Below, piece by piece: positions 6,202 through 58,382 of a DNA stretch of 64,000 bases (its first letter is position 1; every line of letters begins with the position of its first letter). The position numbers and the translations under genes are program-made. Origin of the DNA: Actinomycetospora sp. NBRC 106378. Lineage in GTDB: Bacteria; Actinomycetota; Actinomycetes; Mycobacteriales; Pseudonocardiaceae. The stretch is taken from the NCBI RefSeq assembly GCF_030269685.1, contig NZ_BSTT01000005.1, forward strand, positions 248,001 through 312,000, written 5' to 3'. The notes beneath the pieces are model-generated. The model made no database searches. It was not told the origin of the DNA and was given only the letters and a program-made list of their open reading frames with translations.

Positions 6202-6402
6202 ACCGGGCGCCCGGTCCACGAGGGGGACAGGGCGCGGATTCCGGAGCGTCGGGCCCTGCCCGGTGTACCGCTCGCGAACGACCCACCGAAGGCGCGAGAA
6301 AGCGTCTCCCGTCCGTTTCGCCGGGTCCGAGGGCCCGCGATCTGCGAGGATGCCGCCTCACGCCGGGCCCGAGGCGGCCCACGCACCACTCGGGACGGGA
6401 AC

Positions 6403-19237: not shown

Positions 19238-20896
19238 TCAGGCGAGCCCCACCCCGCAGCCGCCGCAGAAGCGGGCGCCGGCGGCGCGGGCGGCGCCGCA
19301 GTTCGGGCAGTGGCCCGGCCCGCTGTGGTGCTCGACCGCGGGTGCCGCCGGGACCTCCGTGGCCGGCGTCGGGAAGCCCGACGGCGGGGTCGCGAGGGCG
19401 ACGGCCGGGGCCTCCGGGGCGGCTGCAGGTGCCTCGTGCCGCGGGGCGGTGGGGGCAGCCGGGGCGGTCGGGGCGACCGGCGCCGGGAACCCGACGGGCG
19501 GCGAGGCGGGCGCGGCCGGCATCGGGCCGGACTGGCCGAACGGGGCGGCACCGAAGCCGGCGGGTGCCTGCTGGGGGACCTGCGGGCCGTACTGCTGGTA
19601 CTGCTGCTGGTACTGCGGCGTGGCCGCGGGGTTCTGCTGCAGCGGCACCTGGTAGCCGGCCGGCAGCCCGAAGCCGGGCTGGGTCAGGTCGACCGGACCG
19701 GCGGCGACGGGAGCCCGACGACGGCGGACCACGAGGGCGACGACGCCGCCGCCGAGCGCCAGCACGAGGAGCGTGCCGCCACCGATCAGACCCCAGCCGA
19801 GCAGGCCCAGGCCCGTGTCACCGAACTGGTCGTGCGCCTGCACGGCCCGGTTCTTGTAGTCCACGACGGCCTTGTTGCCCGGGGCGACCGCGAGGACCTG
19901 GTCGAACTGCTCGATCGCGTCGGAGTAGTAGCCCTGGTAGTAGAGGTCCAGACCGTTCCGGTAGGCGGTGTCGACGGGGCTCGGGGCGTTGGGGACGCCG
20001 TTGCGGGCCATCATCTCGGCGATCCGGGAGGACGGGGCGATGAAGTTGAACGAGTTGCCGCCGTCACCGGTGGCCTGGCTGTTGATGCCGATGACCTGGC
20101 CCTGCTGGTTGACCGTGGGGCCGCCGCTCATGCCGTGGCCCATCTCGGTGGTCACCTCGGTGTAGGAGATGCCGTCCTGGGTCTGCTGGGAGCTGACCGC
20201 GCCCTCCTTCCAGGTGGGCGTCATGCTCGGGTCCATGGCGTCGTCCCGGGCGCCGGGGTAGCCCATCGACATCACCGGGGTGCCGGTCGGCGCCGGGCCG
20301 CCCGGGGCCACCTCGACGCTGATCATGTTGTGGCCGTCCACCTTGAGCAGGGCCGTGTCGCCCTTGTTGTAGGCCTGGTAGTCGACGACCTTGGCGTCCA
20401 TCGGCTTGTCGCCGGGGTTGGCGGTGGCGGGCAGCACCTGGACGGTGATGGCCGGCGCGGAGTTCCCGGTGCCGTCGACGAAGACGAAGTCCTGCAGGTA
20501 GGTGTACATCGCGTTGGCGTCGTAGCCCGCGGCGCCGTACTCGTTGGCGACCGTGATGCGGGCCTGCATGGCCATCATGGCCGGGTCCACGCAGTGGCCG
20601 GCGGTGGCGATCCAGCCGTCGGAGGAGACGGTGAAGCCGGTGCAGCCGACCGAGAAGGCGTCGACGCGGGCGTACTCACCGGTGTTCGGGTTGACGAGGA
20701 GGCCCTGCGCCGAGGTGATCTGGAGGCGGTCGACGGCGGGGATCACCTCGCCGCTGACCCGCTCCGCGATCGGTGCCCGGGTCGGATCGGGGCCACCCCC
20801 GCCATCCTGGGCCAGGGCTGGGGGTGCGGTGGCGAGCAGCGCGGCGCCGGCGACGGCGACGGTGGCGAGTGCGGACTTCCAGGACGGACGACGCAT
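19238..20896 (-). CDS. Membrane-anchored trypsin-like serine protease with C-terminal zinc ribbon
   Basis: A 552-residue protein with a signal peptide (residues 1-31, ending PPALAQ), an extracytoplasmic trypsin-like domain with His of TAGHC (about 101), Asp of GDTALL (about 180) and Ser of GMSGGP (about 260, where most homologues have GDSGGP), and a helical region near 310-345. One membrane helix follows (about 365-390, LGWGLIGGGTLLVLALGGGVV), then a basic stop-transfer RRRR, a Gln/Pro/Ala-rich cytosolic region and a zinc ribbon CPNCG-n-CGGCG at the end. ATG at 20896 has a GAGGAG site. An envelope-stress or signalling role is possible but inferred. Confidence 0.8.
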   Translation of the reverse strand: MRRPSWKSALATVAVAGAALLATAPPALAQDGGGGPDPTRAPIAERVSGEVIPAVDRLQITSAQGLLVNPNTGEYARVDAFSVGCTGFTVSSDGWIATAGHCVDPAMMAMQARITVANEYGAAGYDANAMYTYLQDFVFVDGTGNSAPAITVQVLPATANPGDKPMDAKVVDYQAYNKGDTALLKVDGHNMISVEVAPGGPAPTGTPVMSMGYPGARDDAMDPSMTPTWKEGAVSSQQTQDGISYTEVTTEMGHGMSGGPTVNQQGQVIGINSQATGDGGNSFNFIAPSSRIAEMMARNGVPNAPSPVDTAYRNGLDLYYQGYYSDAIEQFDQVLAVAPGNKAVVDYKNRAVQAHDQFGDTGLGLLGWGLIGGGTLLVLALGGGVVALVVRRRRAPVAAGPVDLTQPGFGLPAGYQVPLQQNPAATPQYQQQYQQYGPQVPQQAPAGFGAAPFGQSGPMPAAPASPPVGFPAPVAPTAPAAPTAPRHEAPAAAPEAPAVALATPPSGFPTPATEVPAAPAVEHHSGPGHCPNCGAARAAGARFCGGCGVGLA

Positions 20897-23770: not shown

Positions 23771-23783
23771 GGCACCCGGTCAC

Positions 23784-23838
23784 GAGGGGCACGTGAGGCA
23801 GCGCCGGAGGGCGGACGGGCCTGCCTGGCGTGCGCCTC
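23784..23838. repeat. Family E hairpin, solitary copy E1
   Basis: GAGGGGCACGTGAGGCAG and CTGCCTGGCGTGCGCCTC pair at 15 of 18 positions around a 19-nt loop, between the converging RDD and DUF4191 genes. It belongs to the family expanded at 50.5-51.2 kb. Confidence 0.8.
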
Positions 23839-23874
23839 GCGGAAGGCAGGGCCGCACCCGTCGTCGGGAACCGG

Positions 23875-41228: not shown

Positions 41229-41239
41229 TCACCCGGAAC

Positions 41240-41293
41240 GAGGGTGACGTGAGGCAGCGTGGGCTCCGGCCCGGCCTGCCCGGCGTCACCCTC
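41240..41293. repeat. Family E hairpin, solitary copy E2
   Basis: GAGGGTGACGTGAGGCAG and CTGCCCGGCGTCACCCTC pair at 15 of 18 positions, between the converging ilvE and cobS genes. Probably a bidirectional terminator. Confidence 0.8.
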
Positions 41294-41309
41294 GCGGGGT
41301 CGCAGGCCC

Positions 41310-49947: not shown

Positions 49948-50346
49948 ATGAAGGTCGAGTCCCGGATCTTCGAGATCCTGACCGTCTTCTGCTTCGTCTG
50001 CGCGATCGTCTACGGCGTGCTGTCGGGCGAGGAGGTGGGCATCGTCGCGCTGACGCTGACCGGTGGCCTCACGCTCATCGTCGGAACGTACTTCCGGTTC
50101 GTCGCCCGGCGTCTGGAGGAGCGGCCCGAGGACAACCCGGAGGCCGAGGTCTCCGACGGTGCCGGCGACATCGGCTTCTTCAGCCCGGGCAGCTACTGGC
50201 CTCTCGCCGTGGCCGGCGGTGTGGCCCTCACCGGCCTCGGCCTGGCGATCTACCAGTGGTGGCTGATCGTGCTGGCCGGGATCGCGATGATCATCGCCAT
50301 CTGCGGCCTGGTCTTCGAGTACCACGCGGGTCCTGAGGCCCACTGA
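49948..50346 (+). CDS. ctaF: Cytochrome c oxidase subunit IV (actinobacterial)
   Basis: A 132-residue membrane protein with four hydrophobic segments: ILTVFCFVCAIVYGVLSG, VALTLTGGLTLIVGTYFRF, PLAVAGGVALTGLGLAIY and LVLAGIAMIIAICGLVFEYH, plus the loop FVARRLEERPEDNPEAEVSDGAGDIGFFSPGSYWP. This is the actinobacterial CtaF pattern; it stabilises the aa3 complex in the bcc-aa3 supercomplex. It is 31 bp after ctaC, and the ATG has a GAGAGGAGC site. Confidence 0.93.
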   Translation: MKVESRIFEILTVFCFVCAIVYGVLSGEEVGIVALTLTGGLTLIVGTYFRFVARRLEERPEDNPEAEVSDGAGDIGFFSPGSYWPLAVAGGVALTGLGLAIYQWWLIVLAGIAMIIAICGLVFEYHAGPEAH

Positions 50347-50359
50347 GTCCTCCGTACGT

Positions 50360-50396
50360 GAAGGGCCCCTCCCGCTTACGGCGGGAGGGGCCCTTC
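50360..50396 (+). terminator. Terminator after ctaF
   Basis: GAAGGGCCCCTCCCGC and GCGGGAGGGGCCCTTC pair perfectly around a short loop, 14 bp past the ctaF stop. Confidence 0.85.
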
Positions 50397-50472
50397 GTGC
50401 GTGTGGGGCCGATCTGGAGGCGGGCGCTGCCTGACGAGGCACTCCCCGGTCGGCCCTGCTGCGGGCTTCTGC

Positions 50473-51230
50473 GCGAGACGTACGTGAGGCATGTCCCGAG
50501 GGCTATCGGCCTGCCTGATGTGCCACTCGCGGCCGGGCGCATGCCCCGTCCGCCGCGCGAGAGGTACGTGAGGCATGCTCCGGCGGCTCGGGGCCTGCCT
50601 GACGTAGCTCTCGCGGCCGGCGTCCGCACCGCCTTGGTCGCGAGAGGTACGTGAGGCATGCCCCGACGGCCTTGGGCCTGCTCGACGTAGCTCTCGCGGC
50701 CGGCGCTCCGCCGGGGGAGGTGCGGCGGTCCGTCCGTGGCCGCGCTCATGTCGGAGACGGACGCGAGACGTACGTCAGGCATGCCCTGGCGGCCCAGGAC
50801 CTGCCTGGTGTCCCACTCGCGGACGGCGCATGACCCGTCCGCCGCGCGAGAGGTACGTGAGGCATGCCCCGACGGCCCAGGGCCTGCTTGACGTAGCTCT
50901 CGCGGCCGGCGCTCCGCCGGGGGAGCCGGCGGCGGTCCGTCCACGGCCGCGCTCATGTCGGAGACGGACGCGAGACGTACGTCAGGCATGCCCCGGCGGC
51001 CCAGGACCTGCCTGATGTCCCACTCGCGGACGGCGCATGCCCCGCCCGCTGCGCGAGAGCTACGTGAGGCATGCTCCGACTGCCCGGGGCCTGCCTGATG
51101 TGCCCTTCGATGCCAGCGGGCCGAGGGGAGCCGCGGCAGCCCGTCCATGGCCGCGGCCAAGTCGTGGCTCGACGCGAGAGGTGCCCGAGGGATGGCTCGG
51201 GGCGCGGGCGTTCCCGCTGCCGCGGGCGCG
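50473..51230. repeat. Family E palindrome array, seven clear 58-bp units plus one degenerate
   Basis: Units start at 50473, 50557, 50640, 50763, 50846, 50970, 51053 and (decayed) 51174. Each clear unit opens with GCGAGAGGTACGTGAGGCAT or a variant, and all but the last close with a near-complement ending in CTCGC, so each can fold into a hairpin. Spacing alternates between about 83 and 123 bp, giving a 206-207-bp higher-order repeat from 50640 on. No credible gene lies between 50347 and 51386; open frames follow the repeat period and have no ribosome sites. Position: between converging ctaF and qcrB. Confidence 0.9.
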
Positions 51231-51333
51231 AGAGGTCAGGGACGGGTGCCGTTCGAGGGCGGCGCCTCGCTGTGCCGACGGATGAGCACCCATCCCGACC
51301 CGACCCGACGTCGGGAAGAGGGCAGAGACGACA

Positions 51334-51367
51334 ACGGGGCGGGGAGCCCATCGGCTCCCCGCCCCGT
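51334..51367 (-). terminator. Terminator after qcrB
   Basis: ACGGGGCGGGGAGCC and GGCTCCCCGCCCCGT pair perfectly around a 4-nt loop, 20 bp beyond the qcrB stop. Confidence 0.85.
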
Positions 51368-51386
51368 CGTCGGTCTGCTGCTCGAA

Positions 51387-53069
51387 CTACTCCCGCACGT
51401 CGCGCGGTCGGCCCGCGTCGGGACGCCCGGCGAGCTCGCGCCCGCTGGTCGGCTCGACCTGGAGCGGGTCGGTGCCGGTGCCGCCGTGGACACCCCGCAC
51501 GTCGTCCTGCTCCTCGGCCGGGTCGGGGCGGAACCAGCCGCCCTTGACCGGGCTGCCGGAGAAGCCGAGGTCGTTCATCCGCTTCGGGACCTTCGCGCCC
51601 TGGTAGGCGACCGGGATGGCGTGCCCGTGGTCGTCGACGCCGCCCAGCGGCTGGTGGACCTCGATGAACTCGCCGTGCGGCAGCCGCTTGATGTGACCGG
51701 TCTCGATGCCGTGCTCGAGGACCTCACGGTCACTGCGCTGCAGCCCCAGGCAGATCCGGTAGGTCGCGAAGTAGACGACCGGCGGGATCACCAGGAGGCC
51801 GATGCGACCGATCCACGTCATCACGTTCAGGGAGATGTCGAACGTGTAGGCGAAGATGTCGTTACCGCAGGCCAGGACCAGCCAGAAGTAGAACGACAGG
51901 GCCATCGTGCCGGTCGCCGTACGGACCGGGACGTCGCGCGGGCGCTGGAGCAGGTTGTGGTGCGCCTCGTCGCCGGTCAGCTTGCGCTCGATCACCGGGT
52001 AGGCGATGAGCAGGTTCACCAGGACACCGAAGCCGAGGACCGCGGGGAAGAAGACCGCCGGGATCATGTAGTTGCCCAGGTACATCTCCCAGGACGGCCA
52101 CAGGCGCACCGCGCCGTCGAAGACGGCCATGTAGAAGTCGGGCTGCGAGCCGGCCGAGACCTGCGTCGGGTCGTACGGGCCGAGCTTCCAGATCGGGTTG
52201 ATCTGGAACACGCCGGACATGATCGCCATGATTCCGACGGAGACGACCATGAAGCCGCCGGCCTTCGCGGCGAACGTCGGCAGGATGCGGACGCCGACGA
52301 CGTTGCGCTCGGTGCGGCCGGGGCCGGGGAACTGCGTGTGCTTCTGGAACCACACCAGCGCCACGTGCACGCCGATCACCGCGAGGATGATCCCCGGCAG
52401 CAGGAAGACGTGGACGATGTACAGGCGCGGGATGATGATGTGGCCGGGGAACTCGCCACCCATGATCGCCCACTGCAGCCAGGTCCCGATGACCGGGATC
52501 GACATGACGATCGCGGAGAGACCGGTGCGGATGCCGGTACCGGAGAGCAGGTCGTCGGGCAGCGAGTAGCCGATGAAGCCCTCGATCATGCCCGTGAGCA
52601 GCAGGACGACGCCGAGCACCCAGTTCGTCTCACGCGGACGACGGAACGCTCCGGTGAAGAACGTCCGCATCATGTGCGCGATCATCGCGGCGACGAAGAG
52701 CAGCGCCGCCCAGTGGTGCACCTGGCGGATGAAGAGGCCGCCGCGCACCTCCATCGAGATGTTGACGGTCGACTCGTACGCCATCGACATCGTGACGCCC
52801 CGGAGACCGGGGTAGACGCCCTCGTAGGTCGTCTCCGCCATCGAGGGGTCGTAGAAGACGGCCAGCCACGTCCCCGACAGCAGCAGGACGATGAAGCTGT
52901 ACATCGCGATCTCGCCCAGCATGAACGACCAGTGCGTGGGAAAGACCTTGTTGATCTGACGACGGATGCCGCCGGCCGGGTGGATACGGCTGTCGACCTC
53001 GTCGGCGGCGGTGCCGGCGAGCTTCATCGCCGTGCTACCGCTGCGAGTGGGTGTGGTGATCGCACTCAT
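51387..53069 (-). CDS. qcrB: Cytochrome bc1 complex cytochrome b subunit
   Basis: Quinol-oxidising membrane subunit of the actinobacterial bcc complex, 560 residues, with about nine helices. Heme-ligand histidine pairs are in [23 protein letters not shown] and [27 protein letters not shown]. The Qo-site motif family PEW is replaced by the actinobacterial region around [15 protein letters not shown] hydrophilic C-terminal extension ([16 protein letters not shown]) is normal for the phylum. The ATG overlaps the qcrA stop by 4 nt (ATGA). Confidence 0.95.
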
Positions 53070-57410: not shown

Positions 57411-57427
57411 GCCGGCCCGCTGCTCGC

Positions 57428-57481
57428 GAGAGTCACGTGGGGCAGGTCGTGGAGGCCGCCGCGCTGCCTGGTGTGCACCTC
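57428..57481. repeat. Family E hairpin, solitary copy E3
   Basis: GAGAGTCACGTGGGGCAG and CTGCCTGGTGTGCACCTC form an imperfect stem between converging trpD and the ketopantoate reductase gene, touching the latter's stop. The 5' flank GCGAGAG matches the array units. Confidence 0.7.
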
Positions 57482-58382
57482 AGGGGCGGATGCCCCGCAG
57501 CAGGGCGAGGACGGCCCGGTTCAGGGGGGTCGGCACGCCGTGCCGCTCGCCCGCCGTGACCACCGCGCCGGTGAGGTACTCGTGCTCGAGGGGCCGGCCG
57601 GCGAGGCGGTCGTAGAGCATCGAGGTCCCGGTGCCGGGCGGCATCGTCGCGTAGTGCCGCCGCAGATCGGAGACGTCGTCCTCGGAGACGTCGGCCCCCT
57701 CGGCGCGGGCGACGGCGACGACCTCCTGCGCGAGCCCGGTGACCAGGTCGGCCACCGCGTCCTCGCCGAGGACGTCGTTGCGCCGCGACGTGAGCGCGGT
57801 GAGGGGGTTGGCCACGGCGTTGCTGATGAGCTTGCGCCAGACGTCGGTCCGGATGTCGGCCGATCCCACCACCCGCACGCCGTCGTCCCCGCCGCCGAGG
57901 ACGTCCGCGAGCCCGGCGACCCAGGGGCCCTCCGGGAGGGTCAGCCGCCCGTAGCCGTGGTGCACGATGCGCCCGGGACCGACGGCCTCCGCGCCGACGA
58001 CGACGACCGCGGGCACGGCGACCGCCTCCGGGTGGACCAGCCCCTCGACCCGGCGCTCCTGGTCGACCCCGTTCTGGGCCACCACGACCACGCTGCCCGG
58101 TCCGGTGGCCGCGTCGAGCCAGCCGGCGGCCGCCGCGGTGTCCTGGGCCTTCGTCGCGAGGACCACCCAGTCCGCGGGGGCGAGGAAGGCGGGGTCGGTG
58201 TGCACCGTCACCCCGACCTCGCGCTCGGGGCCGTCGACGCCCGCCCGGATCCGCAGCACGTCGAACGGCGTCCGGACCGCCACCGCGACCTCGTGTCCCC
58301 GCTCGGCCGCGAGTGCCGCCAGGACCCCGCCGATCGCACCCGGCCCGATCACCACGACGCTCGCCACGGGGCCATGATCCAC
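57480..58382 (-). CDS. Ketopantoate reductase family protein (PanE/ApbA)
   Basis: An NADPH-dependent reductase of about 300 residues: VVVIGPGAIGGVLAALAAERGH at the N-terminus, VVLATKAQDTAAA, VVVVAQNGVDQERRV, and the C-terminal catalytic Lys in DVWRKLISNAVANPLTAL plus TSMLYDRLAGRPLEHEYLTGAVV. It may reduce the PanB product to pantoate, but the family also has other oxidoreductases. GTG 58382 or GTG 58367 could be the start. Neither has a clear ribosome site. Confidence 0.83.
   Translation of the reverse strand: MDHGPVASVVVIGPGAIGGVLAALAAERGHEVAVAVRTPFDVLRIRAGVDGPEREVGVTVHTDPAFLAPADWVVLATKAQDTAAAAGWLDAATGPGSVVVVAQNGVDQERRVEGLVHPEAVAVPAVVVVGAEAVGPGRIVHHGYGRLTLPEGPWVAGLADVLGGGDDGVRVVGSADIRTDVWRKLISNAVANPLTALTSRRNDVLGEDAVADLVTGLAQEVVAVARAEGADVSEDDVSDLRRHYATMPPGTGTSMLYDRLAGRPLEHEYLTGAVVTAGERHGVPTPLNRAVLALLRGIRP

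Follow-up and report, generated by a model that had tools for sequence, protein, structure and literature searches.

A genus-restricted family of helically spaced palindromic elements at gene ends of Actinomycetospora, probably sites for a DNA-binding protein

The window analyzed here is a 64,000-nt stretch of an Actinomycetospora genome; the nearest named relatives of its cytochrome c oxidase subunit IV belong to this genus (96% in A. soli). Within it, ctaF and qcrB converge on a gap in which an imperfect palindrome of 60 nt is present in seven copies, with start-to-start spacings of 84, 83, 123, 83, 124, and 83 bp (Table 1). The number of palindromes, their spacings, and the compound unit of 206–207 bp all agree with the original prediction for this gap: the compound unit is present in three copies at 71, 100, and 86% identity, and repeat analysis gave 2.9 copies of period 207 with a score of 826. 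The eighth, decayed copy proposed at the same time was not recovered, since neither the covariance model nor the weight matrix reports an element at 51172 or 51226, where left-arm traces of 25 nt (76%) are found. The left-arm pattern, with up to three mismatches allowed, matched 10 times in the window, with 0.02 matches expected by shuffling. A classical hairpin was seen beside each of the two genes, as predicted. A conserved gene across the array was considered and rejected: there is a stop-free segment of 296 codons, yet no gene was called between 50346 and 51387, and the array has been rebuilt in the complete Actinomycetospora genome G002.

Table 1. Features of the ctaF–qcrB gap and dispersed element copies in the window
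Feature	Position	Strand	Basis
ctaF, cytochrome c oxidase subunit IV	49948..50346	+	PF12270
classical hairpin 3' of the subunit IV gene	50360..50396	.	
element copy 1	50472..50531	+	covariance model match
element copy 2	50556..50615	+	covariance model match
element copy 3	50639..50698	+	covariance model match
element copy 4	50762..50821	+	covariance model match
element copy 5	50845..50904	+	covariance model match
element copy 6	50969..51028	+	covariance model match
element copy 7, diverged right end	51052..51111	+	covariance model match
compound tandem repeat, 207 bp (83 + 124 bp)	50556..51155	.	repeat analysis
classical hairpin 3' of the cytochrome b gene	51329..51372	.	
qcrB, cytochrome b of the bc1 complex	51387..53069	-	PF13631 + PF00033; start from frame
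weak dispersed copy	6217..6276	+	covariance model, E 3e-5
dispersed copy, 61 nt	23781..23841	+	covariance model, E 1e-11
dispersed copy	41237..41296	+	covariance model, E 1.5e-8
dispersed copy	57425..57484	+	covariance model + weight matrix

The array belongs to a family dispersed over the whole genome. A covariance model built from 24 copies (60 ungapped columns), used alongside a weight matrix, detected 28 copies in 776,621 nt of unselected genome, namely contig C5 in full plus contig C1 up to 400 kb, on which all unselected counts rest; the weight matrix gave no match in 0.8 Mb of random sequence. The genome-wide estimate is approximately 200–230 copies (~228 by density and ~200 from 107 exact-core matches), and the search proposed with the original prediction thus yielded many further copies. 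Among the matches listed, 135 distinct copies form 84 clusters, of which 46 consist of one copy, 29 of two, 8 of three, and one, the array, of seven, and G002 likewise has 136 copies in 72 clusters; these whole-genome model searches kept at most the best 150 candidates, so that both sets favor high-scoring copies. The element search in the source genome covered 63 loci, the remaining loci overlapping, lying in the unselected stretches, or giving short or no matches, and one element search in other genomes of the genus covered 38 loci. Restriction to a chromosomal domain was rejected, as 75 clusters among the matches listed occupy every half-megabase bin of G002 up to 6.0 Mb. Five strict-pattern copies lie near the start coordinate of G002 (C1:8263-8592 and 20436-20636), possibly near the replication origin. 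Elements were also observed within ~400 nt of contig ends in the source assembly (G000:C5:376372, C21:377, C23:183, and C18:115); the C5 and C23 ends adjoin in G006 (L055), suggesting that the repeats may break assemblies.

The element is 60 nt long in 130 of the 135 copies and 61 nt in five, and its consensus is CGAG-N4-AC-N4-GGCA, approximately 20 nt, and then TGCC-N4-GT-N4-CTCG. The strict core pattern was found in 6 of 10 sampled Actinomycetospora genomes (107, 113, 26, 26, 14, and 2 copies) and in none of 190 genomes from 45 other genera of the family, with one match in one genome for the reversed-pattern control. Among the genomes sampled, the strict core pattern is therefore confined to the genus. 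A looser model detected relatives in the remaining genus genomes searched, several of them 61 nt long, and one weak match in each of two among eight genomes of other families. No paper on this element family was found in open-access PubMed Central.

Copy number at the ctaF–qcrB locus varies within the genus. The orthologous gap of G002 carries six copies with changed orientations and spacings of 83, 156, 82, 154, and 229 bp, and the equivalent gaps of A. termitidis and A. soli carry seven and four copies, respectively; in A. soli, the covariance model adds a weak fifth copy (E 0.76). Of 11 other Actinomycetospora loci, eight contain no copy at 8 bits or more, and the other three contain a single 61-nt copy each, with low scores of 8, 15, and 18 bits. 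A seven-copy cluster is also present in G002 at a different locus, indicating that ctaF–qcrB is a recurrent and not a unique hotspot. In other Actinomycetospora species the gap after ctaF holds different short repeats, e.g., GAACGGCGCGTTCG and GATCCTGGCGTTGAACGCCAG (L077-L081, L083, L084, and L087); this gap thus seems to gather palindromic families. The A. soli gap (L075, beyond ~5850) reaches, by eye, a possible transposase helper gene near the contig end.

The location of the elements relative to genes, as called by a home-made codon-usage script, is biased. In the unselected sample, elements occupy 10 of 89 gaps between convergent genes, 4 of 313 between co-directional genes, and 2 of 112 between divergent genes (convergent 10/89 versus other gaps 6/425, p = 5e-5). 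The larger set of 156 clusters from both genomes, which favors high-scoring copies, comprises 80 clusters in convergent gaps, 59 in co-directional gaps, 8 in divergent gaps, 5 at stretch ends, and 4 inside gene calls. Both stop codons lie within 35 nt of the element in 17 of 36 single-copy convergent gaps, and 42 of the 59 co-directional clusters are closer to the upstream stop. This placement may partly reflect intolerance of promoters. A perfect hairpin of at least 10 pairs is present in 8 of the 80 element-bearing convergent gaps and in 10 of 52 that lack elements; the two classical terminators beside the array are thus an exception. The possibility that elements stand in for classical terminators was rejected, since the difference between single- and multiple-copy gaps was not significant (2/36 versus 6/44, p = 0.28). 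Around clusters of at least three copies, 20 of ~43 flanking proteins were scanned; they share no theme, and their genes are not obviously highly expressed. Four of these 20 proteins are replication or repair proteins (a Lhr-type helicase, DnaE, DnaX, and a DinB-type polymerase; L207, L277, L306, and L210). A second short motif, TTCCCGACGNCGGGT, was also noted, with 41 copies in the 776,621 nt versus none in each of three random sequences; 24 of the 41 are inside called genes, three are within 150 nt of an element, and the positions in the window are 10957, 21470, 23856, 26068, 51303, and 57396.

Comparison of orthologous copies revealed where the constraint lies. In 24 copies compared between the source genome and G002, the 20-base core differs at 20 of 480 sites (4%), while non-core arm sites differ at 213 of 576 (37%); the core constraint is ninefold. 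This comparison covers copies recognized in both genomes in clusters of equal copy number, and the ortholog table has 31 rows, two of which are cross-pairings of neighboring clusters. Aligned stretches around C5 are ~87% identical between the two genomes. Since the non-core divergence is near the value for unrelated copies (0.46), the orthologous copies appear to be old, each still with its core. Scores in the 776,621 nt are sharply divided: 28 copies reach at least 20 bits, no site lies between 6 and 20 bits, and seven sites have 0–6 bits versus 1.4 in random sequence. The elements are either intact or gone, and half-decayed copies are missing. Only 3 of 8314 between-cluster pairs are at least 90% identical, i.e., the family has no master sequence. 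Four of nine mappable C5 loci retain elements in G002 and five have none, indicating that single sites are dispensable. No target-site duplication was seen by eye at the loci empty in G002.

The two arms of the element do not behave as a stem maintained by selection. Arm pairing was not above shuffles in 24 copies, and in 130 copies it was 65.9% versus 67.3% expected for independently varying arms, i.e., there is no covariation. Because strand choice by the model could bias pair counts, we also used an orientation-free test in which half-sites were randomly paired. Core complementarity was as expected, and complementarity at variable positions was 0.451 versus 0.504 for random pairs in the source genome and 0.402 versus 0.508 in G002; none of 1000 shuffles was as low in either genome. 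In the source genome, the deficit is strong at positions 13-16 but not present at positions 7-10. Of the three symmetric middle triplets that are common, GTG/GTG (3 versus 13.6 expected in the source genome, 1 versus 9.9 in G002) and ACC/ACC (3 versus 6.9, and 2 versus 9.3) are avoided, while GTC/GTC is not (5 versus 2.9, and 2 versus 2.0). These results indicate that either selection opposes perfect palindromes or the two half-sites must differ. Two other ideas were rejected. Orientations in G002 are mixed by eye and 12 of the 24 orthologous copies have retained theirs, which does not suggest replication polarity; isolated half-sites, considered as ends of a larger transposon, numbered 12 exact matches versus 8, 4, 10, 8, and 2 in five random sequences, a mild excess at most.

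Neighboring elements are spaced at preferred distances. With the array excluded, 43 spacings of up to 130 bp are concentrated at 82–85 and 91–95 bp, with further values at 73, 103–105, 113, and 123 bp; 79, 89, and 99 bp are off phase. Phase coherence in this set was R = 0.71, and none of 2000 jittered nulls was as high (the jitter of plus or minus 6 bp was our choice). For 78 pooled spacings from independent loci of the two genomes, R was 0.80 (0/5000 nulls); without the 81–85 peak, 34 spacings gave R = 0.64 (1/5000), and without both the 81–85 and 91–95 peaks the remaining 14 spacings were not significant (1110/5000); spacings of 78, 89, and 99 bp do not fit the phase. Two further species agree, with 24 spacings and R = 0.92 (0/5000). 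The 43-spacing set and that of the further species were taken from match lists, and the pooled set from the script's own scan. Neighbors are 82% identical on average versus 69% for unrelated copies, so that local duplication explains part of the spacing; among the 26 neighbor pairs that are no more alike than unrelated copies, however, the comb persists (R = 0.81, 0/5000), and the 83-bp spacers seem unrelated by eye. Orthologous pairs have shifted from 93 to 83, 104 to 83, 104 to 93, 99 to 83, and 85 to 83 bp, and two are unchanged at 83. The 83/124 alternation of the array recurs at another G002 locus (123, 81, 83, 123, 83, and 124 bp), whose spacers have no similarity to those of the ctaF–qcrB array in a pairwise search. 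Overall, the spacings cluster near 83, 93, 104, and 123 bp as a helical comb. By column arithmetic, the outer CGAG blocks are 52 bp apart within an element and 31 bp apart across an 83-bp spacing; at 10.4 bp per turn these distances amount to five turns and three turns, respectively, and all CGAG blocks would therefore face one side of the helix.

Families of intergenic palindromes are usually read as hairpins or transposon debris, and we weighed both readings against these data. An RNA hairpin acting as a U-tract-less intrinsic terminator, 3'-end stabilizer, or RNase substrate of the flanking genes would be consistent with the location after stop codons, with the scarcity of other perfect hairpins in element-bearing convergent gaps, and with the folding of all seven array copies, whose DNA folds better than most shuffles (z -1.96 to -7.0). 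Intrinsic terminators share with the elements this place and the ability to fold, but the elements have no T-run (at least four T within 12 nt; 0 of 542 ends), are fixed in length, and conserve sequence rather than pairing, with reduced arm complementarity and no covariation. In addition, they show no orientation preference relative to the upstream gene (56 versus 44), and their spacing comb lies near the DNA helical repeat. A search of the region 50000-51800 against Rfam gave 18 matches up to E = 1, none at the gathering score. We therefore regard RNA hairpins as unlikely. The results support the earlier view that more than termination is needed to explain the array, and the RNA-processing role suggested with it is also unlikely because the compensatory-change test was negative, even reversed. 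The other reading, selfish palindromes resembling REPs or REPINs that are spread by a transposase and kept in register by mobile machinery, accounts for the copy number, the intergenic place, and the gain or loss between genomes, and published REPs share the placement, lying mostly between convergent and unidirectional genes according to PMC3733652. The likeness to BIMEs, which was noted from the beginning, and to REPs holds for high copy number, intergenic palindromes, gene 3' ends, convergent gaps, and frequent clustering. It does not extend to kinship. The present elements are 58-60 nt long, in contrast to the 20-40 bp given for REPs (PMC3733652); the Y1/RAYT transposase (PF01797) was found in none of the 18 genus genomes, with the control matching 5 of 14 known genomes; and the GTAG foot tag is absent from all 270 ends of the 135 copies, CGTC being near 35 of them and not constant. 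Most neighbors share one orientation (42 of 51 in the source genome and 40 of 64 in G002, with 9 of 51 and 24 of 64 opposed) rather than alternating with recurrent linkers, and the helical comb joins unrelated linkers. Transposase, tag, length, and orientation all speak against membership of the REP/BIME class; the elements are REP-like in place, not in kind. REPINs, like the elements here, have a variable centre between conserved ends in inverted orientation; the elements differ in having no RAYT and no master sequence. Taken together with the missing half-decayed copies, and with no target duplication seen by eye at empty sites, this makes a selfish origin about as doubtful as the hairpin reading.

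Two further explanations were considered. BIME-2 is associated with gyrase binding, and DNA gyrase or a topology factor could read the sites and relieve positive supercoils between convergent genes. The convergent placement and the conserved array between two respiratory operons would be expected in that case, and a role for gyrase or another DNA-binding protein, as first suggested, would fit. A symmetric 20-base core restricted to one genus is unexpected for a universal enzyme, however, and the genes around the larger clusters are not conspicuous for expression; we consider gyrase improbable as the reader. Tandem duplication, or an old miniature transposon, could have left neutral relics; this would account for the 207-bp unit, which is a local duplication, and for neighbors being more alike than unrelated copies. 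Such relics would not be expected to show ninefold core constraint, to lack a decay continuum, to keep the comb among dissimilar neighbors, or to repeat the 83 + 124 layout at a second G002 locus with dissimilar spacers, and this explanation is very hard to sustain.

The constrained core, the missing covariation, and the helical spacing point to recognition of duplex DNA at the ends of transcription units. Operator arrays of cooperative DNA-binding proteins have dyad half-sites, fixed geometry, and helical phasing, and the present family shares all three; the dyad core is conserved copy by copy, and the phasing is present, although weak without both main peaks. The difference is that here ~200 putative sites lie at gene ends rather than at promoters. 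We propose that the elements are probably duplex sites for a putative dimeric, cooperative DNA-binding protein that marks the ends of transcription units as a boundary. A protein of this kind with the half-site CGAG-N4-AC-N4-GGCA is the most economical account of the data, and a boundary, which we infer from place alone, is its likeliest use. The putative protein would bind as a dimer with a subunit on each half-site, and contacts between neighboring dimers would hold adjacent sites on one helix face, with 83 bp (8 turns) preferred and then ~93, 104, and 123 bp. Sites would be retained shortly past stop codons and most of all in convergent gaps, and the protein bound there might act as a two-way roadblock or insulator that halts read-through or antisense transcription or keeps supercoils from being passed on. 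The ctaF–qcrB array would then be a large cooperative assembly between two facing respiratory operons.

In its broadest form, this proposal describes a genus-specific boundary system in which, at the 3' ends of genes, one cooperative architectural protein would occupy ~200 phased dyad sites under selection against hairpins, as a counterpart of insulators or protein-dependent terminators; we advance it tentatively, as a possibility with somewhat less than even chances. Other REP-like families can be examined with the spacing comb and with the orientation-free test of the arms to distinguish protein sites from hairpins. As a defined probe, the 60-bp element could be used to capture a new DNA-binding protein of bacteria, and how convergent genes are kept apart in bacteria becomes a directly testable question.
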